Virus record (IMG/VR): IMGVR_UViG_3300031687_000003
Span: 1 to 64,000 of that record
Length of the DNA: 64,000 nucleotides
Reading direction: 5' to 3' (one strand)
Source of the DNA: a virus
Shown piece by piece: positions 17,586-64,000 of this stretch (positions within the stretch are counted from its first letter, which is position 1; every line of letters begins with the position of its first letter). The position numbers were made by a program, and so were the translations under genes. The notes beneath the pieces were generated by a model, which was given only the letters and a program-made list of their open reading frames with translations, made no database searches and was not told the DNA's origin.

Positions 17586-18233
17586 ATGAAACTAATATCA
17601 GAATACGTAGATAATAACCTACAAATTCTTTCTGAAAAGAATGAAAAAGGCGAAAAGTCTTTTGTGATAGAGGGTGTATTTATGCAGGCCAATAAGAAAA
17701 ATAGAAATGGCCGTGTTTATGATAAAAAGATTTTGGAAGCTGCAGTTGGCAAATACGTCGACGAGCAGGTTTCACAAGGTAGAGCAGTTGGAGAGTTAAA
17801 TCATCCGGAAGGACCAACTGTAAACCTTGACAAAGTTTCACATAAGATCACAAACTTGGAATTCCAAGGGAATGATGTTATGGGAAAAGCATCAATACTT
17901 AATACTCCTATGGGTAATATCGTTAGCGGTTTACTTGAAGGCGGAGTTAAGCTTGGTGTATCAAGTCGTGGTATGGGAACTCTTGAAAACAAGGGTGGCG
18001 TTATGTATGTGAAGAATGACTTTATGTTAGCTTCAGTAGATATCGTTCAAGACCCTTCTGCGCCGTCAGCATTTGTTAACGGTGTAATGGAAGGTGTTGA
18101 ATGGATATGGAATAACGGTATTCTTGCTCCTCAAGAAATTGAAAAAATTGAGACTGAAATAAAACGTACTCCCGCTAGGCACTTGCCAGCAATGGAAATT
18201 AGAGCGTTTAAACATTTCCTCTCTAAACTTTAA
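17586..18233 (+). CDS. 21: Prohead core protease gp21
   Basis: A T4-type herpesvirus-assemblin-like serine protease of 215 residues. 'GVFMQANKKNRNGRVYDKKI' and 'GRAVGELNHPEGPTVNLDKV' carry the His of the active site (H73), and 'KLGVSSRGMGTL' carries the nucleophile Ser (S126 or S127). It processes scaffold, capsid and internal proteins after Glu in L/I-x-E type sites, which matters for the proteins encoded at 55-64 kb. The start follows 'agaggtata'; TATAAATG overlapping it is not an exact late promoter. Confidence 0.94.
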   Translation: MKLISEYVDNNLQILSEKNEKGEKSFVIEGVFMQANKKNRNGRVYDKKILEAAVGKYVDEQVSQGRAVGELNHPEGPTVNLDKVSHKITNLEFQGNDVMGKASILNTPMGNIVSGLLEGGVKLGVSSRGMGTLENKGGVMYVKNDFMLASVDIVQDPSAPSAFVNGVMEGVEWIWNNGILAPQEIEKIETEIKRTPARHLPAMEIRAFKHFLSKL

Positions 18234-43826: not shown

Positions 43827-44116
43827 AAAAATTTGATGTAAAAGAAATAGAACACAGCAAAAGAATATTTAAATCTGCTACTCCAAAATACACACTTGAT
43901 TGGTATGTAAAATGGGTGGCATCGGTATTCGTATTAGCTGCAATGTCAATACGAGGTATTGATGGTTGGCAACTATATGATTTACTCCTGTCAGCTACGG
44001 GTGTAGGTCTATGGACAGTAGTTGCACTGCTTTGGAAAGATAGAGCATTGATTCTATTAAACTCGGTAGGATTTATACTACTAATAAGAAACTTAATAAC
44101 GTATATATCCTCATGA
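43823..44116 (+). CDS. Small multi-pass membrane protein
   Basis: The 97-residue protein has a soluble charged N-terminus then three hydrophobic segments around 'WVASVFVLAAMSIRG', 'LLLSATGVGLWTVVALLW' and 'ALILLNSVGFILLIRNLI'. Similar small proteins with 'WKDRALI' occur in marine phages near nucleotide or host-takeover genes. Function unknown. Four-base overlaps on both sides place it within the operon. Confidence 0.65.
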   Translation: MKKFDVKEIEHSKRIFKSATPKYTLDWYVKWVASVFVLAAMSIRGIDGWQLYDLLLSATGVGLWTVVALLWKDRALILLNSVGFILLIRNLITYISS

Positions 44117-44559
44117 GATTAGATTATAAGAACGTCGGAAAGATAGGAATAACATTCTCATGTTTCGATTTATTGCATGCTGGTCATGTCACAATGCTCG
44201 AAGAAGCAAAAAGACACTGTGACTATTTAATAGTAGGATTACAGACAGATCCAAGCATAGACCGACCAGAAAAAAATAAGCCAATCCAATCTATTGTAGA
44301 AAGACAAATACAATTAGCTGGACTTAAATACGTAGATGAGATAGTAACATACCAAACAGAAAATGATATTATGGATTTACTATTAACATTACCTATAAGT
44401 GTCAGAGTAGTTGGCGAAGATTACAAGGGAAAAGAATTCACTGGTAAAGAGCTCTGTATCCAACAGAAAATTAAAATCATATATAATAGTAGGAAGCACA
44501 GTTTTAGTACTTCAACATTGAGAGAAAGGTTACATGAGAATAGCAATAACAGGAAGTAA
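44113..44559 (+). CDS. Cytidylyltransferase-like nucleotidyltransferase (TagD-type)
   Basis: The 148-residue protein has 'GITFSCFDLLHAGHVTMLEE' with the HxGH motif at H22-H25, 'RQIQLAGLKYVDEIVTYQTE', and a C-terminal 'STSTLRER', the paired motifs of glycerol-3-phosphate/ethanolamine cytidylyltransferases. It would make a CDP-activated small alcohol or sugar. Its location between dCMP and nucleotide-sugar genes suggests a DNA- or glycan-modification role. Overlaps the epimerase gene by 26 bp. Confidence 0.82.
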   Translation: MRLDYKNVGKIGITFSCFDLLHAGHVTMLEEAKRHCDYLIVGLQTDPSIDRPEKNKPIQSIVERQIQLAGLKYVDEIVTYQTENDIMDLLLTLPISVRVVGEDYKGKEFTGKELCIQQKIKIIYNSRKHSFSTSTLRERLHENSNNRK

Positions 44560-45379
44560 CGGTTACATAGGCAAACGCTTAATAGAAAAATTAAAAGGTA
44601 GCGGTCACGATATCTTAGAAATAGATCTTATTAGGCAGCAAGATTATTACAATCGTGAAGTTAATATTAAAGGTCCAAAGGTATCTTGGAATATCACTAC
44701 TACACCTTATCATGGTGGATTGCCATGGTGTTGGATACAATACGATTGTGTAGTCCATTTAGCAGCTTTAGTTAAAGTTGGTGAAAGCGTTGAAAAGCCA
44801 TGGGAATACTATAATACTAATATCAATGGTACTCGAAACGTTATCGAAGCATTTCCAGGAGCTAAATTTATTTTTGCTTCAACAGGTGCAGCTTTTGATC
44901 CAACGTCTCCTTATGCAAAATCAAAAGTAGTTGCAGAAGATATAGTAAGAAGTCTATGTGATGACTATACAGTATTTAGATTCTTTAATGTCGGGGGTGG
45001 AAAACCAAATAACCCTGAAGGATTATATGCCGCTACGCAAAACGCAATTAAATCTGGTGAGTTTACTATTTGGGGAGATGATTATAATACAAGCGATGGA
45101 ACATGTGTAAGAGATTACGTACACGTCGATGATATATGTAATGCAATTATCCGTGCAATCGATAAGCCTGGAAGCTGGGCTGATTACGAACCATTAGGAT
45201 CAGGACAATCATACACAGTTAAACAATACATGGAAACGTTTCTAAAAGTAAACGGTCCATTGTTCGAGCTCAAATACGGACCTCGTAGACCTGGAGATAA
45301 CGAGTATTCTGCAGTTCCATTTAAGTCAAAATTTATAACACCAGAAAAAACATTAGAAGATATAGTGAGGATAACATAA
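44534..45379 (+). CDS. NAD-dependent nucleotide-sugar epimerase (GalE-like)
   Basis: The 281-residue short-chain dehydrogenase has 'ITGSNGYIGKRLIEKLK' (NAD-binding GxxGxxG), 'STGAAF' and 'SPYAKSK' (catalytic Thr/Ser and YxxxK), and the GalE-type substrate segment 'GDDYNTSDGTCVRDYVHVDD'. 'RRPGDN' near the C-terminus is also typical. The best prediction is UDP-glucose 4-epimerase, giving UDP-galactose for the mutase encoded two genes downstream. It is shorter than bacterial GalE (~338). One-base overlap with the next gene. Confidence 0.85.
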   Translation: MRIAITGSNGYIGKRLIEKLKGSGHDILEIDLIRQQDYYNREVNIKGPKVSWNITTTPYHGGLPWCWIQYDCVVHLAALVKVGESVEKPWEYYNTNINGTRNVIEAFPGAKFIFASTGAAFDPTSPYAKSKVVAEDIVRSLCDDYTVFRFFNVGGGKPNNPEGLYAATQNAIKSGEFTIWGDDYNTSDGTCVRDYVHVDDICNAIIRAIDKPGSWADYEPLGSGQSYTVKQYMETFLKVNGPLFELKYGPRRPGDNEYSAVPFKSKFITPEKTLEDIVRIT

Positions 45380-46488
45380 TGAAAATATTAATAACCGGAA
45401 TGAATAAAAATCAAACAACAAAAGATTTCTATTTAAGACAACAGCTAAAGGTAGTACCATCACACTATTCATTGATTCGATGTTTAGAAGATATGGGACA
45501 CGAGGTAGAGCAAAGATTAGTAAAGATCGGAGAAGATCTAGGAGATTATGACAAAGTAATCTGTTTCCTAGCATCACCTAGACAAGCTTTACAATTAGCG
45601 TTCTATAATGGACTATGGGCTATTCACGCTACCGCAAAGCATAACCTTATTCTTGCAATGGATGATTGGCAGACAGAAGATATCTTTAAAGGTATTCAAT
45701 CATGTACAGATAAGGAATCACTCTTAAAAGAATTTACCATCGGACAAAACAAGATGTGTGACCCTGATATGTCATATGAACTATTAGAACCACATGCTGA
45801 AACTTTGTTAGATGCTGTTAAATTCATTGGAGAGAAAAGAAGGCCAATGTTGTTATCAGTGTTTATGGGTGGTGACATGTCTAAGCTCATTAATTATCCT
45901 GAAGATTTATTAGTAGGATATGATCCTAATCCATATCATAGGAATCGAACTCCTGGAAATAGAGGCGATATCGAAATAGAAGATATGGAATTCATGGAGC
46001 AATCTCTGATGCCAAGTATAGAAGAAGATACTATTGGACCCGATGAGAAAGCTATGGTCTTTAACTTCGCTTCACTTGTACAAGGTAAAACAAAACGCTG
46101 GTTAAAGCAGCAAAACGTTAGTGAGTGGGATATCGAATTCTTTGGATCTAGAAAAGAAAAACAAAGACGATTACTCGAAAGTGATATGTGTAAAGTATAT
46201 GCAGAACAATGGGGAAGTTTAATGCCAGGTTACCCTCATGCAGGTTCAGGTTGGTGGAGAGCTAGACCTTATCAAGTAGCTGATGGTGGTTCTATTCTAA
46301 TTGGTGAATACGACGAAATGTATTTGCTATATGGAGACGAATACCTTGCAGGCTTAACTGCTCAAAACCTAGAAGAAATGAATATAGAAGAACTAACTTC
46401 TGTAGCAGAACGCCAAAAAGATGCGCTATATAGTAGGCATCCATTGGATAAAAGAAAGCAACAGAAAGAACTAGGTGTTATTCTGTGA
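45379..46488 (+). CDS. T4 beta-glucosyltransferase-like DNA glycosyltransferase
   Basis: The 369-residue protein resembles T4 BGT (351): N-terminal 'MKILITGMN' with 'VVPSHYSLIRCLEDMGHEVE' matching 'TVPSSETIYLFKVISEMG', 'DYDKVICF' matching 'DYDRLIVV', a 'LAMDD' segment where BGT has catalytic Asp100, and 'WDIEFFGSRKEKQ' matching 'LNIEFFGNAREKQ'. It lies between gene 42 and uvsX, exactly where beta-gt lies in T4. It should transfer a sugar to hydroxymethylcytosine in DNA. The neighbouring epimerase and mutase suggest that the sugar may be galactofuranose rather than glucose. Confidence 0.7.
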   Translation: MKILITGMNKNQTTKDFYLRQQLKVVPSHYSLIRCLEDMGHEVEQRLVKIGEDLGDYDKVICFLASPRQALQLAFYNGLWAIHATAKHNLILAMDDWQTEDIFKGIQSCTDKESLLKEFTIGQNKMCDPDMSYELLEPHAETLLDAVKFIGEKRRPMLLSVFMGGDMSKLINYPEDLLVGYDPNPYHRNRTPGNRGDIEIEDMEFMEQSLMPSIEEDTIGPDEKAMVFNFASLVQGKTKRWLKQQNVSEWDIEFFGSRKEKQRRLLESDMCKVYAEQWGSLMPGYPHAGSGWWRARPYQVADGGSILIGEYDEMYLLYGDEYLAGLTAQNLEEMNIEELTSVAERQKDALYSRHPLDKRKQQKELGVIL

Positions 46489-47489
46489 AGATATTAGTAG
46501 TTGGCGCTGGATTTGCTGGTGCAGTTATAGCAAGGGAATGCGCAGAACAAGGACACACGATAGATGTAATAGATCAAAGAGATCACATTGGTGGTAATGC
46601 TTATGACTACACTGATGAAAATGGAATACGAATTCATAAATATGGTCCACATCTCTTTCATACAAACAACGTTGATGTAGTGAAGTGGCTATCTAGATTT
46701 ACTGAATGGACTCAGTATCAGCATAAAGTTAAAGCTCAATTGGATGATGGACGTTATGTTACTCTACCAGTTAATAAAGAAACAAAAGAAATAGTGGGTG
46801 AAGAGAATGTACTAGATATTTTCTTTAGACCTTACACTTATAAGATGTGGGGTAAAACATTAGATGAATTAAATCCTGCAATAATAAACAGAGTTCCAAT
46901 ACGAGATGATGATAATGAGTTGTATTTTCCTAATGACAAGTATCAGCAAATGCCGAAAGAAGGTTATACTAAGTTGTTTGAGAATATCTTTAGTCATACT
47001 AATATTAACGTATGTACTTCAGTAGCTTTCAATAAATTAATGGAAGAGGATTATGATTATATCTTTAACTCGATGCCTATAGATGAGTACTTTGATAATT
47101 GCCATGGTGAATTGCCATATAGATCTATCAAGTTTCATAACGTAACACTAAATCAAACTAAAGTTTTACCAACAGGAACAGTTAATTTTACACATGATGG
47201 TCCATTTACAAGAGTAACCGAATGGAAGAATATAGCAAATCACGGAGTAAACGACTATAAAACAGTGCTTACTTACGAAGAGCCATGTGATTATAAGGAT
47301 AATAATATGGAAAGATACTATCCAGTTCAAGACGTAGAAGGAACTAATAGAGATACGTATAAGAAATACAAAGATATGGTAGACGAATCTAAAATGAAAT
47401 TTATCGGAAGGTGCGGTCAATATGTTTATATCGATATGCACATGGCAGTTGGCGGAGCATTAGCAGTAGCAAGGAAATTTTTAAAATGA
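46485..47489 (+). CDS. glf: UDP-galactopyranose mutase
   Basis: The 334-residue flavoenzyme has 'VVGAGFAGAVIARECAEQGH' (FAD-binding), 'IGGNAYDY', 'KYGPHLFHTNN' and the C-terminal 'GQYVYIDMHMAVGGALAVAR', all diagnostic of Glf. It isomerises UDP-galactopyranose to UDP-galactofuranose. It starts at a GTG overlapping the glycosyltransferase stop by four bases, a tight pairing of donor synthesis with transfer. T4 has no counterpart. Confidence 0.94.
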   Translation: MKILVVGAGFAGAVIARECAEQGHTIDVIDQRDHIGGNAYDYTDENGIRIHKYGPHLFHTNNVDVVKWLSRFTEWTQYQHKVKAQLDDGRYVTLPVNKETKEIVGEENVLDIFFRPYTYKMWGKTLDELNPAIINRVPIRDDDNELYFPNDKYQQMPKEGYTKLFENIFSHTNINVCTSVAFNKLMEEDYDYIFNSMPIDEYFDNCHGELPYRSIKFHNVTLNQTKVLPTGTVNFTHDGPFTRVTEWKNIANHGVNDYKTVLTYEEPCDYKDNNMERYYPVQDVEGTNRDTYKKYKDMVDESKMKFIGRCGQYVYIDMHMAVGGALAVARKFLK

Positions 47490-48670
47490 ATTACGCATCA
47501 ATAGTACCCTTAATTGGCGGGTCAACAATAGCCATGCAAAACGTATTTGGTAAAAGACCAGAATATATGATGACATACGATGGGTTTCAAGATAATGAAA
47601 AGCATCTTATTAATTATTATAATAATGAAGTACCATATTATAATCTATCAGAAGGACCTAAACCAACTCATAACGTTGATGTAGTAAATACAGTATGTCC
47701 TTGCGCAGGATTAAGTTCTCTATCGGTTGCATCTAGTTCTACTAATGAAGCTAATGACTGGATGGTCACTTCTGCAGAATACGTACTAAGTACAGTTAAA
47801 CCTAAAGTATTCTGGGGAGAGAATGCACCGAGGCTAGCATCTAAAATGGGTGAGCCCGTAGTAGAAAAATTAAGAAGGATTGCTTATAGACATGGATATA
47901 CATTTTCATTGCTACAAACTAAGTCAATACTCCATGGGCTAAGCCAAACTAGAGATCGATCATTCTATTTCTTTTGGAAAGATAGTAAAGTTCCTCTCTT
48001 TGATTATATTCATGAAGCACCAGGAAACATAGCAGAAGATATTAGATCAATATCCTTAGATAGTAGTGATCCAATGTCAGCTTTAACTAATGAAAAAACA
48101 CCCTCAGAAAATCCATTTTATCGATATGTATTAGAAGCAATCGAAGGTGGTATTACTCATAAAGAATTCAGTTCCAAGCTTACTAAATCATGTAACGTTA
48201 TGGACTATATAGAAGAACATACGAATTATAAAGAAGTTTCAGTTTGGATGGAAGAGCATGGATTTGAAAAAGAATCTAAGAGATGCTTGACAATGTATCA
48301 CAAATTAAAATCAGGTGGCAATATTATGAGAAAGAATATTGAAGTACCATGTGATAAAATTGGTGCATTTGTTGGTCATCTACCAACTATGTTAACTCAT
48401 CCAGATGAAGACAGATTCTTGACTGTAAGGGAAGCCTTATACATTATGAGAATGCCAAGTGATTTTGAATTGCTTGACCCTAAAAGAACACTAAACCATA
48501 TATGTCAAAACGTTCCGGTTACAACTGCAGAGTTTGCAGCTAAACAGATCTATAAATATTTAAATGGACAGATTGATTTAGTAGACACAGATTTTCTTAT
48601 TCAAGATAATCGAAAAAAAGCCATAAAATATCAAAAAAACAGTGTACAACTCGACAGTTTTATGGTATAA
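47486..48670 (+). CDS. C5-cytosine methyltransferase homologue
   Basis: The 394-residue protein has the ordered Dcm-type motifs: motif I 'SIVPLIGGSTIAMQNVFG', motif IV with the catalytic Cys 'VCPCAGLSSLS', motif VI 'WGENAPRL', motif VIII 'SQTRDRSFYF', and IX/X 'RFLTVREALYIMRMPSDFEL' with 'NVPVTTAEFAAKQIYKYL'. It could methylate or otherwise modify cytosine C5. If the genome is fully hydroxymethylated the C5 position is already blocked, so its substrate is an open question. Start overlaps the mutase stop; the upstream in-frame ATG at 47411 is inside the mutase gene. Confidence 0.85.
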   Translation: MNYASIVPLIGGSTIAMQNVFGKRPEYMMTYDGFQDNEKHLINYYNNEVPYYNLSEGPKPTHNVDVVNTVCPCAGLSSLSVASSSTNEANDWMVTSAEYVLSTVKPKVFWGENAPRLASKMGEPVVEKLRRIAYRHGYTFSLLQTKSILHGLSQTRDRSFYFFWKDSKVPLFDYIHEAPGNIAEDIRSISLDSSDPMSALTNEKTPSENPFYRYVLEAIEGGITHKEFSSKLTKSCNVMDYIEEHTNYKEVSVWMEEHGFEKESKRCLTMYHKLKSGGNIMRKNIEVPCDKIGAFVGHLPTMLTHPDEDRFLTVREALYIMRMPSDFELLDPKRTLNHICQNVPVTTAEFAAKQIYKYLNGQIDLVDTDFLIQDNRKKAIKYQKNSVQLDSFMV

Positions 48671-52211: not shown

Positions 52212-52388
52212 ATGTTAAATTCGATAAAAAACTGGGTAAAAAATAGATTGCCTGAAAGAACTTCACATGACGGAGTATTGCTTATTGTGATATGCGGTAG
52301 TGTGTTGCTTTTTGGTGGTGTAGCTAAACTACTCGCATGGGTAGGAATAGGTTACGGTATCTATACTTTAGTCAGAGAGGAAGCGTAA
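52212..52388 (+). CDS. 58-residue membrane protein
   Basis: The start ATG at 52212 follows GGAG within 'aaatggagaaaat'; the ATG at 52197 lies upstream of that site. The product is basic at the N-terminus ('SIKNWVKNRLPERT') with a hydrophobic C-terminal half 'VLLIVICGSVLLFGGVAKLL'. Its stop overlaps the next start. It may help insert or anchor the outer-membrane protein that follows, but this is conjecture. Confidence 0.6.
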   Translation: MLNSIKNWVKNRLPERTSHDGVLLIVICGSVLLFGGVAKLLAWVGIGYGIYTLVREEA

Positions 52389-53005
52389 TGAGTTATTTAA
52401 AATCATTAGGAATGGCAACATTATTAATTCCATCATTTTCATTTGCAGACGTAAGTGGTAGTGTAGGATATAGTAGTGATTACATGTGGAGAGGGGCAAC
52501 TCAATCCAATGGCCAATCTAGCTTTAACGCCAATCTTGAAGTAGAATCCAACGGTTTCTTTGCAGGTGCATGGACTGGACAAGTTGACTTCGGAGACGAT
52601 GCATCTTGGGAAAGGAATCTATATTTAGGATATGGCTTTAGCGTTAGTGATAACTTAAGCGTCAAAGCGGGTATTAATCAAATACGTTATGACGGTGGTG
52701 GAAGAGGCGTGAAAGAAGAAGGATTTGTTAAAGTAAATTACAAAAACTTAAACGTCATGTATTTTCTAGACACCGAAAATGAAGATGATTACGCGCATAT
52801 CAGCTATGACATATCGGACTTTGTTCCAGTAGTAGATGTAGCTCTTGGTTATGGTTACCATGACGAAGAAAATGATTTCTCGACAATGACCGTATCATAT
52901 GATCTAAACGATGAATTCGAACTTAGCATGATGGTAATGCTTGACATGGCTTTCGAAAATCAGTTTAGTGATTCTGTATCTCTCGGTTTACATTATAATT
53001 TTTAA
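52388..53005 (+). CDS. Exported outer-membrane beta-barrel protein (TorF / Gcw_chp-like)
   Basis: The 205-residue protein has a clear signal peptide ('LGMATLLIPSFSFA' before DVSG) and then 'VSGSVGYSSDYMWRGATQSN', the diagnostic start of the Gcw_chp/TorF family of putative porins. Alternating amphipathic strands and a terminal aromatic residue ('LHYNF') fit an outer-membrane barrel recognised by the BAM complex. A phage-made outer-membrane protein could change nutrient uptake or block superinfection. It was probably acquired from a Gram-negative host. Confidence 0.85.
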   Translation: MSYLKSLGMATLLIPSFSFADVSGSVGYSSDYMWRGATQSNGQSSFNANLEVESNGFFAGAWTGQVDFGDDASWERNLYLGYGFSVSDNLSVKAGINQIRYDGGGRGVKEEGFVKVNYKNLNVMYFLDTENEDDYAHISYDISDFVPVVDVALGYGYHDEENDFSTMTVSYDLNDEFELSMMVMLDMAFENQFSDSVSLGLHYNF

Positions 53006-55216: not shown

Positions 55217-55224
55217 TATAAATA
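55217..55224 (+). promoter_or_regulatory. T4-type late promoter TATAAATA
   Basis: An exact octamer six bases after the preceding stop; it is the natural late promoter for the putative virion-internal gene cluster that follows. Confidence 0.85.
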
Positions 55225-55249: not shown

Positions 55250-55278
55250 TTTACATTGGCTAAAAAGTATGGTATAAT
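55250..55278 (+). promoter_or_regulatory. Early-type promoter giving a leaderless transcript
   Basis: TTTACA (55250-55255), 17-bp spacer, TGG-TATAAT (55273-55278). The ATG of the next gene begins at 55285, six bases after the -10, so an RNA from this promoter would start at about the initiation codon. The late promoter 26 bp upstream would give a normal leader. Confidence 0.8.
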
Positions 55279-55284
55279 CTATTT

Positions 55285-56736
55285 ATGTTAAAATTTTCTA
55301 CATTCAAAAAATTAAACGAAGACATTAGTGCATTAAAGTATGCAGGTGACGACGCTGAATTTGCGATAAAACTAATCTCAGAGATTGATGATCAAATAGG
55401 AAGTATTGATAGCGAGATTGAATTAGATGGAAGGTCTGGAAAAAATAGCGGTGCTAAGCTTGGTATATCTCAATTAATGATTGACAACCAACGTGGTAAG
55501 TTCTCTTCACTAGCAAACTCAATCATCGACAAAAGCCCAGAATTAGAAAGAAAAAATACAGCTCCTGGAAGAGAAGAAAAAGATTACGCATTTAAACATG
55601 TGGATATGACCAAATATATCTATGTTAATCTTAGACCAACAGGAAAACGATCTGCGGCTGGCGATGATCCTAACGAACTAATGACAGCAGCGTTATGTTT
55701 ACTACCTAAACTTAAAGTACCTACTAACTCAGATGATATGGATATTCTTATCGATATTGTATCAGGTAGTTTAAAGAAAGTAAAAGGTTATAAACAAGGT
55801 CAAGTCGATTCTTTAAAAGAAGATTATCCGAATCTTTGTATGGCAGTTTCAGCTGCAATATCAATACACGAAGCTGGTTATGGTAATGCTGATATGGTAT
55901 ATCTTACAGGCCAAGCATGGGACGACGATGTTAAACAGTTCCAAATATCTAAATATGGAATGGCTGATTTTAACTCTTCAGATTTCATAATTAAAAAAGG
56001 TAAGAACTACCTTGGTGTATCTCTTAAGAAGAAAACACGATTAAGTTCATCTGACCCAACTCTAATTAATAAATCATTCGCTACATTATTCCAAGATAAG
56101 AAATTTGATTCAATGATTAAAGCTTTAGAATTAAAAGCTGGTATGTTTTACTTAAGAGTTATTGCTAAGGCCAAAAAAGACGGCGGGTTATCTGCAGATA
56201 TGTTGACCATGATGGCAAAGAAAAGACCTAGCACAACCAATTGGAAAATGTATGTACAAAGAATTGATAACAAATTTATTAATTCAGAGTTAAAAGGATC
56301 TAAGTCTTTATTCAAAGCAATGTCTGATATCATTATTACGAATAAAATGCAGATTGCTAATCAATTAGTACAACTAATATTTAAAGCAGATCTAAAAGAA
56401 TTAAAGAAAGTCAACTTTGATTTTACGCTTGTTACTGGCATAGGAGATTATGGACCAAAAAAAGGTGTAGTAGTTGAGAAGGGTGAATACAAAGACATCG
56501 ATACTGTAACAACTAAACTAGATGAACTATTTAGTACAGGCAAAGTCGATATAAGATTAACACCAGGAAAGAAACAAGCATTCGAAGTTGGTGCTGGAGC
56601 AGCAATGTTATTCTTTGACTTAATGATTGGTGACATACCAGTATGTAATATTACATTAAGATACAAAGGAAACTTCAGATCAGCGCCATCGTTTATGGCA
56701 CAAATGACACCAGAATTTAAAAAATTATACAAATAG
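55285..56736 (+). CDS. Putative virion-internal protein with capsid-targeting-like N-terminus
   Basis: The 483-residue protein starts 'MLKFSTFKKLNEDISALKYA', which resembles the T4 internal-protein targeting sequence (M-K-T-[YF]-x-x-F-x-x-E) with a possible gp21 cut after E12. The middle holds 'ADFNSSDFIIKKGKNYLGVS' followed by LKKKTR, which could be a D...SxK variant of a PD-(D/E)XK nuclease core. The rest is an alpha/beta protein I do not recognise. It leads a cluster of similar N-termini and is under both a late and an early promoter. Confidence 0.6.
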   Translation: MLKFSTFKKLNEDISALKYAGDDAEFAIKLISEIDDQIGSIDSEIELDGRSGKNSGAKLGISQLMIDNQRGKFSSLANSIIDKSPELERKNTAPGREEKDYAFKHVDMTKYIYVNLRPTGKRSAAGDDPNELMTAALCLLPKLKVPTNSDDMDILIDIVSGSLKKVKGYKQGQVDSLKEDYPNLCMAVSAAISIHEAGYGNADMVYLTGQAWDDDVKQFQISKYGMADFNSSDFIIKKGKNYLGVSLKKKTRLSSSDPTLINKSFATLFQDKKFDSMIKALELKAGMFYLRVIAKAKKDGGLSADMLTMMAKKRPSTTNWKMYVQRIDNKFINSELKGSKSLFKAMSDIIITNKMQIANQLVQLIFKADLKELKKVNFDFTLVTGIGDYGPKKGVVVEKGEYKDIDTVTTKLDELFSTGKVDIRLTPGKKQAFEVGAGAAMLFFDLMIGDIPVCNITLRYKGNFRSAPSFMAQMTPEFKKLYK

Positions 56737-56744
56737 GAACTAAC

Positions 56745-57011
56745 ATGGTATATGCAGAATATAAAACATTAGAAGAAGCCTCAAGAGAACTAGGCACTAC
56801 GGAACTGGAAGAAGCTCCATTAGTAATGGCTGAAAGAGATATTATGGATACTGTATTAAACGCAATTAAAAAAGAGTTTGATAAACAGGCTAACAAAAGT
56901 CCAGAAAAAGCTTTAGCAATGCTTCAGCAATTAGGCAAAATCGTTGGGTATGGTATTACTAAGTCGAATCAATCTAAAGGTAAAGCTTTTAGATATGATC
57001 TTAAAAAATAA
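56745..57011 (+). CDS. Small helical hypothetical protein
   Basis: The 88-residue protein begins 'YAEYKTLEEASRELGTTELE' with EAPLV next, so an L-E-E/A site could be cut by gp21, and continues as helix 'IMDTVLNAIKKEFDKQANK' ending basic. One-base overlap with the next gene. Likely co-assembled with its neighbours; no specific function. Confidence 0.55.
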   Translation: MVYAEYKTLEEASRELGTTELEEAPLVMAERDIMDTVLNAIKKEFDKQANKSPEKALAMLQQLGKIVGYGITKSNQSKGKAFRYDLKK

Positions 57012-57364
57012 TGAAAACATTTAAGAATTTTATCTTAGAAGCAGGCCCAGGATTATGGGCCAACATCCGTGCTAAGAAAGCGCGTGGTGAGAAGATGAGA
57101 AAGAAGGGAGCGAAAGGTGCTCCTACTAAAGCTGCTATGAAGTCAGCTCAAGAAGATAAAGGAAGTAGCGAATCTTGGGAAGCAGGATTTCAAAGACGTG
57201 TAATAAAAACTACTAAGCCAGAACATTTAGAAAAAGGTTATAAGTATAGAATTAAGGGTAAAGAAAAAGCTGAAATAACTATTAAGCTTTATAAAACAAA
57301 ACCAGACTTTGCTGAATTTAAGAAGCAAATGAAAAGAGTAGCTGGTCACGAATTCGGAGGATAA
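57011..57364 (+). CDS. Putative virion-internal basic protein
   Basis: The N-terminus 'MKTFKNFILEAGPG' is almost identical in pattern to the T4 internal-protein signal MKTYQEFIAEA; a cut after I-L-E would leave a mature protein starting AGPGLWANIRAKKARG. That segment, with 'RKKGAKGAPTKAAMKSAQ', is a Lys/Arg/Gly-rich motif recurrent in phage virion proteins. The 117-residue product is very basic and could bind packaged DNA. Overlaps the previous gene by one base. Confidence 0.68.
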   Translation: MKTFKNFILEAGPGLWANIRAKKARGEKMRKKGAKGAPTKAAMKSAQEDKGSSESWEAGFQRRVIKTTKPEHLEKGYKYRIKGKEKAEITIKLYKTKPDFAEFKKQMKRVAGHEFGG

Positions 57365-57365
57365 C

Positions 57366-57800
57366 GTGGATATTAAACAAAGAAATAAAATTGTACGTTC
57401 ATTTAACAGTAAATGGAAATATAGAAAAGACAAAGATCAATATGGTATGGCAGATGCTTGGAAAATTATTTACTCAGCTAATGCCGAAGGTAAATTCGTA
57501 GGTGACTGCGAGGACTACTCATTATCAATCTTATATAGATTGTGTGGCGAAAGTCATATAAAAATGTGGTGGATGTTAATCACTCATCAAGCTGGTATAT
57601 GTTTAGTTGGTCCTTCTAAATGGAAATCATCACACGCAGTATTAAGATATAAAGGTGAATACGTAGACAACTGGACTAAGAAGTTTGGTCCTAAATCTGA
57701 AATTGAAAAGAACCATACCTTTCATTTTATATTTGGCCACGGTTTAGCTTATCAAGCTGCTCTTAAAATGATTATAAGCAAAGTATGGAGAAGCTTATAA
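57366..57800 (+). CDS. Transglutaminase-like cysteine peptidase (BTLCP-type)
   Basis: The 144-residue protein starts at GTG 57366 behind 'ggaggataac'. It carries 'FVGDCEDYSLSILYRLCG' (catalytic C48) and 'KSSHAVLRYKGEYVDNW' (H90 and D101/N102), the Cys-His-Asp layout of bacterial transglutaminase-like cysteine proteinases. It has no targeting-like N-terminus, so it may be a cytoplasmic or co-packaged enzyme acting on neighbours or host proteins. It overlaps the next start by one base. Confidence 0.78.
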   Translation: MDIKQRNKIVRSFNSKWKYRKDKDQYGMADAWKIIYSANAEGKFVGDCEDYSLSILYRLCGESHIKMWWMLITHQAGICLVGPSKWKSSHAVLRYKGEYVDNWTKKFGPKSEIEKNHTFHFIFGHGLAYQAALKMIISKVWRSL

Positions 57801-58129
57801 TGAAATCACTAGTGCAGTACTGCTGTGAATCATGCCACGATGTTGTGATAGAAGCTTCCGAGTATCAAGGGAAAAAGGTTAAGCTTAATGATCCTATTAG
57901 AACATCAGAAAATAAGAATAAGAAATTCAAAGTGTATGTTAAAAATGACAAAGGAACTGTAGTAGTGGTCAGATTTGGCGATCCTAAGATGGGAATTAAT
58001 CGTGATGACCCAAAAGCAAGAGCTTCGTTTCGTGCAAGACATGGATGCGATAAAGATCCTGGACCGAAATGGAAAGCTAAATATTGGAGCTGTTTTCAAT
58101 GGCGCGCTGGCGCTAAGGTAGATAATTAA
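57800..58129 (+). CDS. DUF6321-like phage protein
   Basis: The start used is ATG 57800, overlapping the peptidase stop. The 109-residue protein contains 'CCESCHDVVIEASEYQGKKV' then 'VRFGDPKMGINRDDPKARAS' and 'FRARHGCDKDPGPKWKAKYW', a Cys/His-rich conserved block common in phages and thought to be a processed virion or protease-linked domain. The Cys residues could bind zinc. Ends one base into the ligase-like gene. Confidence 0.68.
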   Translation: MKSLVQYCCESCHDVVIEASEYQGKKVKLNDPIRTSENKNKKFKVYVKNDKGTVVVVRFGDPKMGINRDDPKARASFRARHGCDKDPGPKWKAKYWSCFQWRAGAKVDN

Positions 58130-59373
58130 TGTTAAGTTTTAAAAGACAGCTGATAGCAGAAGCCGCATCTAAGAATACTCATATGACACATATTGAGGAC
58201 TTAGTTTTGGACGGTGGAGTTAAGGGGGCACGCCAAGCAATCCTAGCATTACGAGCGCTTAGGGATATGTTATCTGGTAACGCGAAGGCGCCAGTCGACG
58301 TTACGGTCAAGTGGGACGGTGCCCCCGCCATATTCGCTGGTATGGATCCAAGTGATGGCAAATTCTTTGTAGCGAAAAAGGGAATCTTTAATGCTAATCC
58401 AAAGGTATATAAATCTCATGAAGATATTGACGCTGACACATCAGGCGATTTATCTAAGAAATTAAAAATAGCATTCGATAACTTAAAAGGCTTGGGCATC
58501 ACTGATGTTATCCAAGGCGATTTTATGTTTGATAAGAGTGACATCAAAACAGAAACTATCAATGGTATTAAGCATATTACATTTCACCCTAATACAATTG
58601 TTTACGCTGTTCCTGTAGGGACTTCACTGGCCAAGGATATCACAAAGGCTGAGTTCGGAGTTGTATGGCATACATCATATAGTGGTTCAACATTCGAATC
58701 AATGTCAGCTACGTTTGGACAACCTATTACACCTAAAATTAAATCTACATCTAAGGTTTGGCAGGTCGATGCTATGTTACCAGATATTTCTGGTTCTGCA
58801 ACAATGACTGCAAAGGAAACTGAAGAAGTAACTAAACACTTATCAATTGCTGGCAAGATATTCAAGACAGTAGCTGGTTCAACGCTTAAAGAAATCGAAT
58901 CTAATAAAGAACTTAACCTATTACTTAACACATATAACAATACTAAAGTTCGTAAAGGTGAACGAATCACTAATACTACCACTCATGTAAAGGGATTAAT
59001 AGATTGGGTTAACGATAGATATATGAAACAGATTGATAAGCTATCATCTGAAAAAGGTAAAGCAAATAAAAACAAACAAAGAGAGGCTATATTATCCTTT
59101 TTTAGTACGTCTAATCAAAAAAAGTTAATAAATGTGTTCGATTTGCAAAATTCTATAGTAGATAGCAAATTAATTATTATAAATAAACTAAACAGTCTTA
59201 ACAAAATAGGTACATTTGTTAAAACGAAGTCCGGATTTAAAGTGACCAACCCTGAGGGTTTTGTTGCTATAGATCGTATGGAAGGTGGAGCGGTTAAACT
59301 TGTTGACAGATTAGAATTCTCTGCCAATAACTTTAGCAAGGATATAATAAAAGGTTGGGAAAATCCTAACTAA
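58129..59373 (+). CDS. Nucleotidyltransferase/ligase-like protein with capsid-targeting-like N-terminus
   Basis: The 414-residue protein starts 'MLSFKRQLIAEAAS', with an I-A-E site after residue 11. Downstream is 'VDVTVKWDGAPAIFAGM' with K61 in a KxDG motif, 'VIQGDFMFDKSD' as a motif III-like strand, and a C-terminal 'EGFVAIDRMEGGAVKLVDRL' as motif IV/V, the layout of DNA/RNA ligase and capping nucleotidyltransferases. It is likely to form a covalent Lys-AMP. Packaging in the head and delivery with DNA is inferred from the N-terminus. Confidence 0.72.
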   Translation: MLSFKRQLIAEAASKNTHMTHIEDLVLDGGVKGARQAILALRALRDMLSGNAKAPVDVTVKWDGAPAIFAGMDPSDGKFFVAKKGIFNANPKVYKSHEDIDADTSGDLSKKLKIAFDNLKGLGITDVIQGDFMFDKSDIKTETINGIKHITFHPNTIVYAVPVGTSLAKDITKAEFGVVWHTSYSGSTFESMSATFGQPITPKIKSTSKVWQVDAMLPDISGSATMTAKETEEVTKHLSIAGKIFKTVAGSTLKEIESNKELNLLLNTYNNTKVRKGERITNTTTHVKGLIDWVNDRYMKQIDKLSSEKGKANKNKQREAILSFFSTSNQKKLINVFDLQNSIVDSKLIIINKLNSLNKIGTFVKTKSGFKVTNPEGFVAIDRMEGGAVKLVDRLEFSANNFSKDIIKGWENPN

Positions 59374-59391
59374 TATGGGTGACCGAGGATA

Positions 59392-59754
59392 ATGAAGACA
59401 TTTAAACAGTTCAATGAAGCGATGACTACTTCTCAGCGAATGAAGGCTAAGGCTACGTTCCGAAAGAATAAAGGGAAGATCGCATTAGGCAGAAAGAAAG
59501 CTGCTAAAAAACTAGCCTCCCCAGAAAAATTAAAAGCTCGTGCAACTAAACAAGCACGTAATATCCTTATCAAAAAAATCCTAAAAGACAAAAACAAAGC
59601 TGACCTAGGTTTTGCTGCACGTGGTGAATTAGAAAAGAAATTAGACAAGAAAAAAGCAGCCATACAGAGAATAGCAAAGAAGCTATTACCGGCCGTTAAA
59701 AAAGCAGATAAATTAAAGTTGAAGAAAGTAAAAGAACCCAAAGGTGAAAAGTAA
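59392..59754 (+). CDS. Histone-like Lys/Ala-rich putative internal protein
   Basis: 'MKTFKQFNEAMTTSQRMKA' is a clear targeting-like N-terminus with a potential cut after E9. The remainder of 120 residues is extremely basic and Ala/Leu-rich ('KIALGRKKAAKKLASPEKLK', 'KKLLPAVKKADKLKLKK'), the composition of histone H1-like and DNA-condensing proteins. It would neutralise packaged DNA, as T4 internal proteins do. Ribosome site 'gaggata'. Confidence 0.72.
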   Translation: MKTFKQFNEAMTTSQRMKAKATFRKNKGKIALGRKKAAKKLASPEKLKARATKQARNILIKKILKDKNKADLGFAARGELEKKLDKKKAAIQRIAKKLLPAVKKADKLKLKKVKEPKGEK

Positions 59755-59760
59755 TATATT

Positions 59761-60999
59761 ATGATAAACTCGTTTAAGTCGTATCTTAAGGAAGATAAAT
59801 CGGAAGTCACCTTTGCTTTTGGCAGGTTCAATCCGCCAACAATAGGACATGAAAAGTTAATGGATGCTGTTAAGAAAGTATCTATGGGTGGAACATATAG
59901 AGTATATCCATCTCAGTCACAGGATGCTAAAAAGAATCCTCTTAATTTTAATGATAAAGTTAAGTTTATGAGAAAGATGTTTCCTAAGCATGCCAGAAAT
60001 ATTATGGCAGATAAAGGAATAAGACAACCAATGGATATTGTTGTTGCACTATATAAGCAAGGGTTTACTAAAGTAACTATGGTTGCTGGTAGTGATAGAG
60101 TACTAGAGTTTGAAAAGTTACTGAACAAATATAATGGCGAAAAAGGTAGGCATGGGTTCTACCAATTTGAAGGTGGCATAACTGTTAAAAGCGCAGGTGA
60201 AAGAGATCCTGATGCTGAAGGTGCTACTGGAATGTCAGCTTCTAAATTAAGAGCTGCAGCAAAAGAAAACGATTTAGCTGCATTTTCAAAAGGTATGCCT
60301 AAAGGATTTAAGGCTGCAGAAGAAGTTATGAATGCCGTAAGAGCTGGAATGGGTTTAGCTGAATCAAAGAATTTCAGAAAGCATGTTCAATTAGAAAAAG
60401 TATCTGATAGAAGAGAAGAATATATTAATGGCCAACTCTTTAAAGAGGGTGATGAAGTAATCATTAAAGCCACTAATGAAGTTGGTAGTATTAAAGTATG
60501 TGCTTCTAACTATGTCATAGTACAACTAGGTGAAGAAAAGAAAAGAGTTTGGTTGGACGGAGTAGAGTTAATCGAATATGTCAATGAAGTTGGCACAGAT
60601 AAAACTACTAAAGATTATAAGAAAGTCACTCCTGGCGAAGCTAAAGACTATGATACTATGGACTCTAAAGAAAAGGCAAAGCATGATAAGCCTAGAGATG
60701 ATGCTCCAGAGAGTAAACATACAAAGAATTTTAAAAAGAAATTTGGAGAAATGAAAAGCTTCAAGGATTCTTTAAAAGAAGATGGTACAAAAGTATCATT
60801 GCAGAAAAAGGCGGATAAAACCGGTATGCCGTATGGTATATTAAAGAAAGTATTTGATAGGGGATACGCAGCCTGGAAGACCAGTCATAGACCAGGGACT
60901 AATCCAACACAATGGGGTATGGCAAGAGTTAACTCTTTTGCTACTAAAAGCAAAGGAACATGGGGCGGAGCTGATAAAGATCTAGCCGCTAAAGTATAG
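59761..60999 (+). CDS. NMN-adenylyltransferase-like protein fused to DUF5872, with targeting-like N-terminus
   Basis: 'MINSFKSYLKEDKSE' contains a possible L-K-E cut at residue 11. Residues 17-190 are a HIGH-type nucleotidyltransferase: 'FGRFNPPTIGHEKLMD' (H30) and 'GMSASKLRAAA' (ISxTxxR-like), as in NadM/NadR. A linker with 'ESKNFRKHVQLEKV' (S202) and a second signal-like 'MKSFKDSLKEDG' (M331) precede a C-terminal DUF5872-like block 'WKTSHRPGTNPTQWGMARV'. The protein may be cut into pieces in the prohead. NAD synthesis is inferred from motif only. Confidence 0.7.
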   Translation: MINSFKSYLKEDKSEVTFAFGRFNPPTIGHEKLMDAVKKVSMGGTYRVYPSQSQDAKKNPLNFNDKVKFMRKMFPKHARNIMADKGIRQPMDIVVALYKQGFTKVTMVAGSDRVLEFEKLLNKYNGEKGRHGFYQFEGGITVKSAGERDPDAEGATGMSASKLRAAAKENDLAAFSKGMPKGFKAAEEVMNAVRAGMGLAESKNFRKHVQLEKVSDRREEYINGQLFKEGDEVIIKATNEVGSIKVCASNYVIVQLGEEKKRVWLDGVELIEYVNEVGTDKTTKDYKKVTPGEAKDYDTMDSKEKAKHDKPRDDAPESKHTKNFKKKFGEMKSFKDSLKEDGTKVSLQKKADKTGMPYGILKKVFDRGYAAWKTSHRPGTNPTQWGMARVNSFATKSKGTWGGADKDLAAKV

Positions 61000-61008
61000 G
61001 AAAAAAAA

Positions 61009-61569
61009 ATGAAATTAAAAGACTTAAGAGAAAAATTTACCGCTATTGACGAAGCTAAGCAGGAGTTCTGGACAGTCACTGTTCTGAAGTCTATAAATAA
61101 GTTAAAGAAGGGACAAAAGGTTGTTGTTAAAGCCCGTGGATCTAGTGAAGCACTGAAAAAAGGTGCTAAGAACCTTGGAGACCCACAAGCTAATATGCCA
61201 GGTTACCTAGAAGTAGCGAAGGATAAGAAAGAAGGTGTTGAAGAAGCTTTATCTGATAAAGATAAAAAGAAACGTTTAGCTATGATCAAAAAGGCAGTAG
61301 AAAAAATCTCTAAGAGTAATGCTGATATGGCTAAGAAAGATGCTCTTAGAATGATGAAAGATTCTGGTATGTTTGATGAACAGGTTAATGAAGATAGAAA
61401 AAAAGATTTAAAAGATTTAGAAACTTTATCCCTAGCTTATACAGATCAAAAGAGTAAAGGTAAAGACGTTAAGGTATTACTAAAGCAAATTTCAAGTTTA
61501 AAGAAGAAACTTGGTGAGAGTACAACTATTAAAACATTTAAACAAATGAGAGTTGAGGGGAAAAAATAA
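61009..61569 (+). CDS. Lys-rich helical putative internal protein
   Basis: The 186-residue protein starts 'MKLKDLREKFTAIDEAKQEF', with an I-D-E cut site at residue 15. Repeated Glu-bounded segments follow ('KEGVEEALSDKDKKKRLAMI', 'DEQVNEDRKKDLKDLETLSL'), and the C-terminus 'TIKTFKQMRVEG' (K175) is another signal-like copy. It is basic and helical throughout. Likely processed and packaged; no enzyme motif. Confidence 0.62.
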   Translation: MKLKDLREKFTAIDEAKQEFWTVTVLKSINKLKKGQKVVVKARGSSEALKKGAKNLGDPQANMPGYLEVAKDKKEGVEEALSDKDKKKRLAMIKKAVEKISKSNADMAKKDALRMMKDSGMFDEQVNEDRKKDLKDLETLSLAYTDQKSKGKDVKVLLKQISSLKKKLGESTTIKTFKQMRVEGKK

Positions 61570-62348
61570 TGTCGATAACAGAAGCAAAATTTAAACCGGC
61601 ATTAATAAAAAAAGCAATTGGCATTGCTAATAAGATGGCCGGTAATTATTCAGGCGCAGTTAGAGCAATTGAAAAATTACAAAAAGGTCTTTCTAAATAC
61701 AAAGAAGTTAATGATGTATTGTATAAAGTTAATAACGAATCAGTTAGCTATCTGAAAGCTATTATCAAAGAAGCTTGGGGTAAGAACCTTGATGAACTAT
61801 GTGCTTCAATGAAGTTAAACAAAGTTCAAAAAGATATCCTTAAAGATTATATGGACCATGGTCAAATCAAATCTCAATATGTAGGACGTGCTGCTGGTGA
61901 TGTAAAAGCTAGTAGAATTTATGCTGCTAAGAAACCTTATAGAGGTCAATTAACAGATAAGAAAGAAGCCTTATATAATGCTATGAAGATTAATCCAAAG
62001 CAAAAGAAAATCCTAGCATCTTATATGACATCAGGAAATATTGTAGGTAAGTATGCTGGTTCAATGGCTGGTAGTCATAAAGAAACTAAAAAATATCAAG
62101 GCATGAAAAACTTTAAAGAACATTATAATATAATTAATGAAAGAAACTTTAAAGCTACTTTAGATTATGATATGGGTGATCCGAGAGATAATCAAGATGA
62201 CTGGCAAGACGATGGAGTCTTTATCGATACTTGGGATAAAAGAGAAGGCCAATTAGTGGTCACAAGTACAGATAAAAGAGGTTTAGAAAAATGGTTGGTA
62301 GATGTTTACGGTTTAGATAAAAAGACTGTAAAAGGATTAGTTAAATAA
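61569..62348 (+). CDS. Helical putative internal protein
   Basis: 'MSITEAKFKPALIKKAIGIA' has an I-T-E cut after residue 5. Two helical repeats share 'KAIIKEAWGKN'-like and 'QKDILKDYMDHGQIKSQYVG' / 'QKKILASYMTSGNIVGKYAG' segments, an internal duplication. A third part begins with a signal-like 'MKNFKEHYNIINE' (M179) and ends in a small alpha/beta domain 'DTWDKREGQLVVTSTDKRGL'. The modular build suggests polyprotein-like processing. Overlaps both neighbours by one base. Confidence 0.65.
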   Translation: MSITEAKFKPALIKKAIGIANKMAGNYSGAVRAIEKLQKGLSKYKEVNDVLYKVNNESVSYLKAIIKEAWGKNLDELCASMKLNKVQKDILKDYMDHGQIKSQYVGRAAGDVKASRIYAAKKPYRGQLTDKKEALYNAMKINPKQKKILASYMTSGNIVGKYAGSMAGSHKETKKYQGMKNFKEHYNIINERNFKATLDYDMGDPRDNQDDWQDDGVFIDTWDKREGQLVVTSTDKRGLEKWLVDVYGLDKKTVKGLVK

Positions 62349-62632
62349 TGGCAAGAGTGACTCAAACAGATAGATTAGATAGAATTGAAGATAAACTCGA
62401 TCGACTATCTGATGCTATTATATCACTCGCACGAGCTGAAGAAAAGCTCATGGGATTAGAAAAATTCGTTCATCAACAAATGGAAATGTTGGTTGATGGG
62501 CAAAGGCGATTAGAACTGGTAGAAAAGAAAGTTTCAGAAAATGGAACTACTATTAATATAATCAATAAAATATTCTGGATAGTTATGGCTGCAGCCGCAA
62601 CCGCTGTCACTGGAATGATAATACTGCAATAA
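62348..62632 (+). CDS. Coiled-coil protein with C-terminal membrane anchor
   Basis: The 94-residue protein has a long coiled coil ('LDRIEDKLDRLSDAIISLAR', 'RRLELVEKKVSENGTTINII') and a C-terminal transmembrane helix 'IFWIVMAAAATAVTGMIIL'. This tail-anchored layout resembles XhlA-like or holin-associated phage proteins, but an inner-membrane DNA-entry role is equally possible given its neighbours. Function unassigned. Confidence 0.65.
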   Translation: MARVTQTDRLDRIEDKLDRLSDAIISLARAEEKLMGLEKFVHQQMEMLVDGQRRLELVEKKVSENGTTINIINKIFWIVMAAAATAVTGMIILQ

Positions 62633-62643
62633 AGGAGAAAACT

Positions 62644-63885
62644 ATGAAATTGCAAGATAAAGAAACTCTAAGTGTTGCTGACGCTGTCAAGAATGTCTTA
62701 GAGAACAAGAAAGCCGTTAACGAAATGGATCCAAAAGATCACGTTACGAAAGACGGTGACTCATATGTAGTCAAAAAGAATGATGGTACGGTAATGAAAT
62801 CGTTTGATTCAGAAGAGGAAGCATCAGCTTGGGCAACTAAGAATCATGATGCCATAATGAAAGAATCAGAAGAGCCTAATAAACCTAGTAAGAAGAATGG
62901 CCCAGCAACTGGAGAAGATGACTTTGATAAGAAGCATAAGATCAAGAAAACTGGTGCTAACGACAAAGGCGAAGTTAGTGCTGAAGGTACTTTACCACCA
63001 GCTCTTCAAAAGGCTATTGATAAAAAGAACGGTAAGAAAACTGACGACGAAGACGAAGTAGAAGAAGGCATTGAAAAAGAAGGTAATAAATTTACTGGTG
63101 CTTTAAATGCTGCTCGTAAGAATGGCGATAAAACATTCGTAGTCTCTGGTAAGAAGTATACTGTTTCTGAGTATGACGATAAAGAAGATGAAGACGAAGA
63201 TGAACTAGACGAAGCTAAGAAAGCTGGCAAAGGAAAAGTTACTATTGATGTAGATTACAGTGGTGATACAACTGATGCTAAGAATGCTGAGAAAAAGTTC
63301 AAGCTTAAAATTAAAATGCGTGGTAGAGGAACTGCTGACGTAACTGGTGATAAAGCTAATATCGTTAAATGGCTAAAAAGCGACATGTATGGTATGGACC
63401 AAGATGATATCGAAGATATCTTCGCGAATCTATTTGAAGATACTGTCAATGAAGATCAAAAAGCGTATCAAGCTTTCTTCGCAAAAGCTCTTAAGAAGTT
63501 TGGTGTTAGTAACCCAGCTGAATTAAAAGGCGACAAGAAGAAAGAATTCTTTGATTACGTAGATGCTAACTATAACTCTAAAGCTGAAAAAGGCACTGAC
63601 GGAGTTAAAGAAGGTATTAGTGATGTAATTGGTAAAGTCAAAGATAAAGTCAAAGGTGTTGATAGAGATAAAATCAAGAAAATTAATCTAAAAATTAATG
63701 CTCTTGTTGATAAAGATAGAGAAGCTCAAGCTAAACTTAAAGCTGCAGAACAAAATGACTCTTTATCTGATGAAGAATTTGATAAAAAGGAATCTTTCTA
63801 CAACGAAGTAATGGCCAATATTGGAAAAGAAATCAGTCAGCTAAAAGATTCACTTAAAAAGGCTAGAGCCGGTAGGAGAGGATAA
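62644..63885 (+). CDS. Acidic, modular putative internal or scaffold-like protein
   Basis: The 413-residue protein is strongly charged with Asp/Glu runs. It starts 'MKLQDKETLSVADAVKNVLE', with later Glu sites 'AVNEMD', 'VEEGIE' and 'DTVNEDQ', several of which could be gp21 sites. Modules include 'YVVKKNDGTVMKSFDSEEEA', a beta-domain around 'GKVTIDVDYSGDT', and 'AYQAFFAKALKKFGVSNPAE' followed by 'FFDYVDANY', a motif seen in marine phage structural proteins. Ribosome site 'aaaggagaaaact'. Confidence 0.62.
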   Translation: MKLQDKETLSVADAVKNVLENKKAVNEMDPKDHVTKDGDSYVVKKNDGTVMKSFDSEEEASAWATKNHDAIMKESEEPNKPSKKNGPATGEDDFDKKHKIKKTGANDKGEVSAEGTLPPALQKAIDKKNGKKTDDEDEVEEGIEKEGNKFTGALNAARKNGDKTFVVSGKKYTVSEYDDKEDEDEDELDEAKKAGKGKVTIDVDYSGDTTDAKNAEKKFKLKIKMRGRGTADVTGDKANIVKWLKSDMYGMDQDDIEDIFANLFEDTVNEDQKAYQAFFAKALKKFGVSNPAELKGDKKKEFFDYVDANYNSKAEKGTDGVKEGISDVIGKVKDKVKGVDRDKIKKINLKINALVDKDREAQAKLKAAEQNDSLSDEEFDKKESFYNEVMANIGKEISQLKDSLKKARAGRRG

Positions 63886-63886
63886 G

Positions 63887-64000
63887 ATGAAAACATTTGC
63901 AGAAATTAGAAATCATGTTACTGAAGGTGTAAAAGATCTTAAAAACTTTAAGAATAAAAACCGTAAAGCTGAAGCTTCAATGACCATTGAGATAGTTAAA
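63887..64000 (+). CDS. Putative internal protein, 3' end beyond the window
   Basis: The first 38 codons begin 'MKTFAEIRNHVTEGVKDLKN', another targeting-like N-terminus with a possible cut after E13. The gene runs off the right edge, so length and identity are unknown. It shows that the cluster continues. Confidence 0.6.
   Translation, partial: MKTFAEIRNHVTEGVKDLKNFKNKNRKAEASMTIEIVK

Follow-up and report, generated by a model that had tools for sequence, protein, structure and literature searches.

The closest known counterparts of the gene cluster analysed here are the internal proteins (IPs) of bacteriophage T4, which start with an N-terminal capsid-targeting sequence (CTS). In the ten-residue CTS of T4 IPIII, residues 4 and 7 target packaging and residues 8 and 10 processing, and foreign proteins fused to a CTS are delivered by T4 to the host (PMC9026906). 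T4 has two designs of this leader, a short one in IPII and IPIII (MKTYQEFIAE/A, the slash marking the cut here and below) and a longer one in IPI (MKTFKEFTSTTTPVSTITE/A); IPI, once injected, acts as an inhibitor of a restriction enzyme of the host. Another known system is T4 Alt, an ejected ADP-ribosyltransferase cut at ITE-6 and LTE-619, and a further one is formed by the ejection proteins of SPN3US and phiKZ, many of which are packed in the head with N-terminal propeptides that are cleaved (PMC5694885). In T4-like cyanophages, virion-associated NMNAT-like, kinase and SAM-hydrolase proteins have been reported (PMC10665884, PMC9602691, PMC9146016). Here we describe a co-directional gene run from position 55285 to genome position 65437 of IMG/VR virus record IMGVR_UViG_3300031687_000003, a T4-like phage record of 77,106 bases, the first 64,000 of which constitute the window; the last 13 kb of the record were read as well. 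This run is probably a T4-type internal-head-protein locus that has been enlarged with enzymes and basic proteins, which would be packaged, cut and injected.

The locus shares with the T4 IPs the leader length, the residues at positions 4, 7, 8 and 10, the E/A site, the coexistence of short and long leader types, the basic cargo and the gp21, gp22 and gp67 machinery, whereas the searches made gave no match between a cargo family and an internal protein, conserved enzymes are found among the cargo, far more tagged genes stand in one cluster, and CTS-like copies occur within one cargo protein. Alt is comparable as an ejected enzyme with gp21 sites at both ends, and the 186-amino acid (aa) protein at 61009 has a C-terminal CTS-like copy that recalls it; however, family searches gave no similarity to Alt, which has no leader of the IP type. 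The SPN3US and phiKZ propeptides differ in being mostly much longer and in having another cleavage motif, and there is no confirmed gp22 counterpart in those phages. Closest in cargo are the cyanophages S-CREM2, S-SZBM1, S-SCSM1 and S-SM1, in which an orthologous cytidylyltransferase or NMNAT-like protein is present in virions and has a CTS-like start in the three that were checked, although the S-CREM2 paper (PMC10665884) makes no mention of a targeting signal for its virion-detected enzymes, and the DUF6267 protein is untagged in S-SM1 and S-SZBM1. The original prediction, made from the shared N-termini of this run, took MKTYQEFIAEA as the start of T4 internal proteins in general, which is true of IPII and IPIII, IPI beginning MKTFKEFTSTTTPVSTITEA. 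It also called the route scarcely described in marine T4-like phages, which does not hold for the virion proteins already reported. The principle is that of T4, and in the literature outside subscription journals and preprints no paper was found that links these virion proteins to a CTS; within that scope, the novelty lies in finding the leader on conserved enzymes in marine T4-like phages, in its link to virion proteomes and in the internal copies.

Probable capsid-targeting leaders of the gene run

Six products of the window have convincing T4-type CTS starts, with an aromatic or hydrophobic residue at about positions 4 and 7 and a putative gp21 site [LIF]-x-E at about residue 10 or 20, usually followed by a small residue. 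All on the + strand, they are a 483-aa protein of PHROG 3060 (55285-56736; MLKFSTFKKLNE/DI, relatives beginning MxxFxxFxxLxE/DL), a 117-aa basic protein with an isoelectric point (pI) of 10.2 (57011-57364; MKTFKNFILE/AGPG; PHROG 11180/16028), the DUF6267 protein (PF19782, Pfam E 4e-103; 58129-59373, with the leader MLSFKRQLIAE/AAS at 58129-58164), a 120-aa lysine-rich protein (59392-59754; pI 10.8, 35% K+R; MKTFKQFNE/AMTT), an NMNAT-like cytidylyltransferase with a KOW-like middle and a DUF5824 domain (PF19141) (59761-60999; MINSFKSYLKE/DK), and a 120-aa protein of which only the start lies in the window (63887-64000, the gene ending at genome position 64249; MKTFAEIRNHVTE/G). The leader sequences of the set include MKTFKNFILEA and MLSFKRQLIAEA. 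The five N-termini that had been quoted as examples (57011, 59392, 58129, 59761 and 63887) are all true starts of open reading frames (ORFs), and the count of at least nine tagged products was generous, since beyond these six only three or four weaker starts were found in the window, among them those of 61009 and 61569 and an alternative start inside 57785, which fit the pattern at positions 4 and 7 weakly. Another clear CTS start, MKLKTFKMWEMAAN, lies beyond the window end at genome position 65285. The Methylophilales phage Melnitz, a relative that can be cultured, has the same cluster.

Within the phage's own genome, the loose pattern occurs on 8 of 16 cluster genes and 9 of 88 others (Fisher p = 6e-4), and the strict pattern on 4 of 16 and 4 of 88 (p = 0.02), while shuffled N-termini gave a mean of 1.0 and a maximum of 5 with the loose pattern. 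The motif search over marine T4-like relatives that had been proposed gave a far sharper result. Among distinct N-termini taken from 80 related contigs, cluster families have the strict pattern in 90 of 284 cases and other families on the same contigs in 2 of 249, the figures for the loose pattern being 133 of 284 and 8 of 249; these marine relatives are phylogenetically non-independent, and therefore the pattern of change weighs more than the totals. At the level of sequence, this comparison settles that the tag is more than chance.

The pattern of change is best seen in the leaders of DUF6267, of which all 46 distinct ones from 75 related marine contigs match the pattern. In the class of 11 residues, Tyr is constant at position 7 (20 synonymous and 0 nonsynonymous codon differences) and Glu at position 10 (36 synonymous and 0 nonsynonymous), Leu occupies position 8 in 11 of 12, Leu or Phe stands at position 4, and positions 3, 5, 6 and 9 are variable. 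The class of 13 residues has a similar trend, less strict, in which position 7 can be Y, Q, H, F or N. Constraint thus appears to fall mainly on positions 4, 7, 8 and 10, the very residues that serve targeting and processing in T4. A different arrangement is seen in the lysine-rich family of 59392, where the leader MK[TS]FKE[FHY] is kept apart from minor variants, as is the junction E/A[ML][TS], and a spacer of 0 to about 13 residues separates the two. Since leader and junction are kept and match the two T4 designs, families with unrelated bodies share a leader that is, on this pattern of conservation, modular and evolving separately from the protein body.

Virion proteomes of related cyanophages

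The virion proteome of the estuarine cyanophage S-CREM2 (PMC10665884, Table 3) was compared with its genome (OR473000), in which the starts of 215 coding sequences were read, with the stretch 100,001-104,999 left out. A fixed-spacing motif, M-x(1,3)-[FYL]-x2-[FYL]-[LIFVM]-x-E, is found on 6 of the 215 starts, five of which belong to virion-detected proteins that are non-structural or unassigned and one to an undetected protein. The motif thus marks 5 of the 28 non-structural or unassigned proteins that were detected, against 1 of 165 undetected ones (p = 2.5e-4), in a test that was not blind, as the motif had been written after the S-CREM2 N-termini were seen. The tagged virion proteins are the SAM hydrolase gp6 (MKDFDSFLEE), gp13 (MKDLHSFLTE), the kinase-like gp14, which has a GTG start (KRFDAFLTE), gp136 (MQTFSMFFSE) and the cytidylyltransferase gp154 (MKNFSSFLTEA). 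In the detected HNH or "Cas9-like" protein gp12, the motif stands about 17 residues in (LRFASFMAEA), and the C-terminal end is KTFRDFLN. The virion-detected proteins that are not known to be structural and have CTS-like starts were listed as gp6, gp12, gp13, gp14, gp15, gp136, gp154 and gp155. With the comparison restricted to proteins not known to be structural, which was the sole informative form of the motif test, the strict pattern was also significant (p = 0.007) and the loosest of three patterns was not (p = 0.075). A rank test over the whole proteome with a position-weight matrix gave no significance (p = 0.15), since tail and shell parts, which have no CTS, make up most of the virion proteins.

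The cytidylyltransferase is the cargo that recurs. Its orthologue is present in the virions of S-SM1, S-SZBM1 and S-CREM2 and is tagged in all three, beginning MKKFSAFLNEA in S-SM1 and MRFRQFIIEA in S-SZBM1, and an NMNAT-like protein is also found in the virions of S-SCSM1. In S-SZBM1, the DUF6267 neighbour of the cytidylyltransferase lacks a leader (MAKNTHLEHLED) and is missing from the proteins detected in virions.

Cargo, head machinery and neighbouring genes

The product of 59761 matches PHROG 3041/395 (E 6e-78) and DUF5824 (E 4e-14), and its family has invariant FGRxNPPxxGH and SAS..R columns, which are motifs of the nucleotidyltransferase fold, with Pfam CTP_transf_like below its cut-off. 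With GRxNPPxxGH intact, it is, judged from these motifs, an NMNAT-like cytidylyltransferase, and the KOW-like middle is our own reading. In the 414-aa DUF6267 protein at 58129, KWDG is invariant among 28 relatives, and EG[FY]V and KLVDR are conserved or nearly invariant; such motifs are suggestive of the covalent nucleotidyltransferase (ATP-dependent ligase) superfamily, for which the PDB gave no sequence match and Foldseek of the model nothing usable (best E 0.33). The proteins at 57011 and 59392 may be described as lysine-rich proteins of the DNA-binding type. For the 483-aa protein at 55285, assignment as a terminal nucleotidyltransferase was rejected on matches that were too poor (E 6e-3, TM 0.17-0.25), and assignment as a PD-(D/E)xK nuclease was supported by no search. 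A search for defence-system families gave no match.

CTS-like copies are also present inside the cytidylyltransferase. One, NFRKHVQLE, follows the nucleotidyltransferase domain (60370-60396, + strand), and two more, FKKKFGE and MKSFKDSLKED, stand just before DUF5824 (60730-60783, + strand); across the family, the corresponding motifs are FRKHVxLE after the nucleotidyltransferase domain and FKxMFGE and FEDFxxE directly ahead of DUF5824. Over 47 sequences, which are linked by descent, the mean number of internal copies per protein is 1.74 against 0.48 after shuffling. Phage C48C1 encodes DUF5824 as a gene of its own, beginning MITFKKYLEEKRYS, so that split and fused versions have the motif at one and the same junction. 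This is the sole split copy seen; in the 80 contigs, DUF5824 was never found as a stand-alone ORF. TPGQ or TPGE segments recur ahead of the internal motifs in several relatives. Motifs at domain boundaries would fit a precursor cut by gp21, for which T4 Alt, processed at both of its ends, is the nearest precedent, and a fusion remnant that is not cleaved is equally possible. It is conceivable, though we hold it to be somewhat doubtful, that the tag is a general cargo-loading code of Kyanoviridae-like marine phages and that some multi-domain precursors are cut by gp21 at their boundaries into separate injected enzymes.

T4-type head machinery is encoded in the same genome as the leaders. The gp21 prohead protease that had been placed at 17586 is indeed present there (17586-18233, + strand; Pfam Peptidase_S77, E 5e-40), followed by a gp22-type scaffold with a family match to T4_CASP (18259-19428, + strand), with the gp23 capsid protein nearby. 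A 55-aa ORF (17408-17575, + strand) is a candidate gp67-like prohead core protein by its position between the portal gene and gp21 and its resemblance to T4 gp67 alone. A late promoter ahead of the cluster had likewise been predicted correctly. An exact T4-type match, TATAAATA, lies in the intergenic space about 60 bp 5′ of the first ORF (55217-55224, + strand), and 23 matches were found in the window against 11.9 expected, all except one on the + strand. A sigma70-like promoter, TTTACA-17-TATAAT with an extended -10 TG and 11 of 12 consensus bases (55250-55278, + strand), is also there; it is one of the two best among 33 regional hits, whose number is not above chance.

The weaker members of the cluster, all on the + strand, start with a small basic protein of PHROG 7595 (57785-58129), with a weak CTS, MKSLVQYCCE, at an alternative start and a possible second site, VIE/ASEYQGKK, ahead of its domain; its homologue in phage C48C1 begins MKKFKQYIDEG. 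The 186-aa protein (61009-61569) has a weak N-terminal site, MKLKDLREKFTAIDE/AK, and the C-terminal copy TFKQMRVE at 61534-61557, and its relatives begin MKTFKEIRNE or MKRFNELREA. A 259-aa protein (61569-62348) starts with MSITE/AK, comparable to the ITE-6 site of T4 Alt, and has relatives that begin MKFKELREKYR. Within the run, 57366-57800 encodes an untagged 144-aa protein with weak similarity, below the cut-off, to BTLCP transglutaminase-like cysteine proteases (Peptidase_C93). Elsewhere on the record, a protein of the HAD acid-phosphatase type at genome position 76197-76808, distant from the cluster, has a CTS-like start (MKRQLLNYILEAQKG). A Gcw_chp (PF09694) protein at 52337-53005 with an internal signal-peptide-like start (MSYLKSLGMATLLIPSFSFA) resembles a phage-borne outer-membrane protein; a sugar-nucleotide cassette of CTP_transf_like, NAD epimerase and UDP-galactopyranose mutase genes, then a C5-cytosine DNA methylase, occupies 44113-48670; and at genome position 65687-67263 a spanin-type gene and a lipoprotein-like ORF, with a class 3 lipase (PF01764) directly behind them, may belong to the lysis cassette.

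Proposed packaging and injection, and alternative readings

Under the internal-protein reading, the tagged proteins would be expressed late in infection and drawn into the prohead core by the N-terminal leader, whose aromatic or leucine residues at positions 4 and 7 would bind the core. The gp21 protease would then remove the leader by cutting after the Glu, which stands near residue 10 or, in long leaders, near residue 20, and the mature proteins would stay in the head beside the DNA and go with it into the next host. Support for late expression and for core binding comes from analogy and comparison; a role in the next cell would follow by inference. The proposed cargo includes the NMNAT-like cytidylyltransferase, the DUF6267 protein, the 483-aa protein and the lysine-rich proteins. 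A packaged and injected protein set had been predicted for this cluster, and its parts differ in strength: packaging is well supported by the comparative data and the virion proteomes of relatives, cleavage of the leaders by gp21 is likely from conserved sites in the sequence, and injection into the next host would hold by analogy with T4.

Several points weigh against this reading, besides the motif having been written with the S-CREM2 N-termini in view. The enrichment is modest when this genome is taken alone, and the products of 57366, 62348, 62644, 64278 and 64646 lie within the gene run and have no CTS-type start. The virion evidence comes from published proteomes of relatives and not of this phage, and the S-CREM2 authors warn that abundant proteins might co-purify (PMC10665884). 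When the motif was carried unchanged to S-SZBM1, 3 of 218 starts matched, of which the cytidylyltransferase is in virions and two small proteins were undetected, a pair of 105 and 165 aa from the head-tail gene block that is outside the published 30-protein list. DUF6267 being untagged in S-SM1 and S-SZBM1, packaging of this family is not universal. To our knowledge, no new N-terminus after Glu has been reported for the tagged proteins. SSZBM1_191 and SSZBM1_192, two small proteins from the head-tail gene block of S-SZBM1 (OL473597, 122311-123125) that are absent from its published proteome list, have the textbook CTS starts MKSFKSFLSES and MKTFKQYITEA and are good internal-protein candidates.

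The alternative that survives best, though we consider it unlikely, is that the leaders bring their proteins into the prohead core to serve as scaffold or in DNA condensation, aiding assembly or packing, with no functional injection, which would suit the basic nature of T4 internal proteins, the pI of 7.9-10.8 in 10 of the 12 cluster proteins complete within the window, and the cutting of the core proteins gp22 and gp67 to peptides. However, a conserved nucleotidyltransferase with an intact GRxNPPxxGH motif and a conserved 414-aa DUF6267 protein are hard to see as filler, and T4 IPI itself is injected and acts on the host. It is rather improbable that the proteins work in the producing cell and that the virion signals of relatives are co-purified abundant proteins: the sigma70-like promoter could allow early expression and co-purification was raised by the S-CREM2 authors themselves, but detection tracks the tag, replication proteins are absent from the S-CREM2 list, and the cytidylyltransferase recurs across three independent proteomes. 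That the shared start reflects AT-rich codons after the start codon, or chance in lysine-rich proteins, is most improbable, for although AAA-, ACA- and TTT-rich starts are plausible in AT-rich phages and fit the modest enrichment in the phage's own genome, other families on the same contigs are nearly free of the tag, Glu10 and Tyr7 persist despite many synonymous codon changes, and the motif marks virion proteins of S-CREM2.

If the cluster is an enlarged internal-protein locus, as we favour, a simple sequence rule would explain the presence of certain enzymes in the virions of abundant marine T4-like phages. Injected proteins would become predictable from genome sequence, and one could test which proteins arrive in the host ahead of all phage gene expression. 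The leaders might also be of use in the laboratory, for loading proteins of choice into phage heads.

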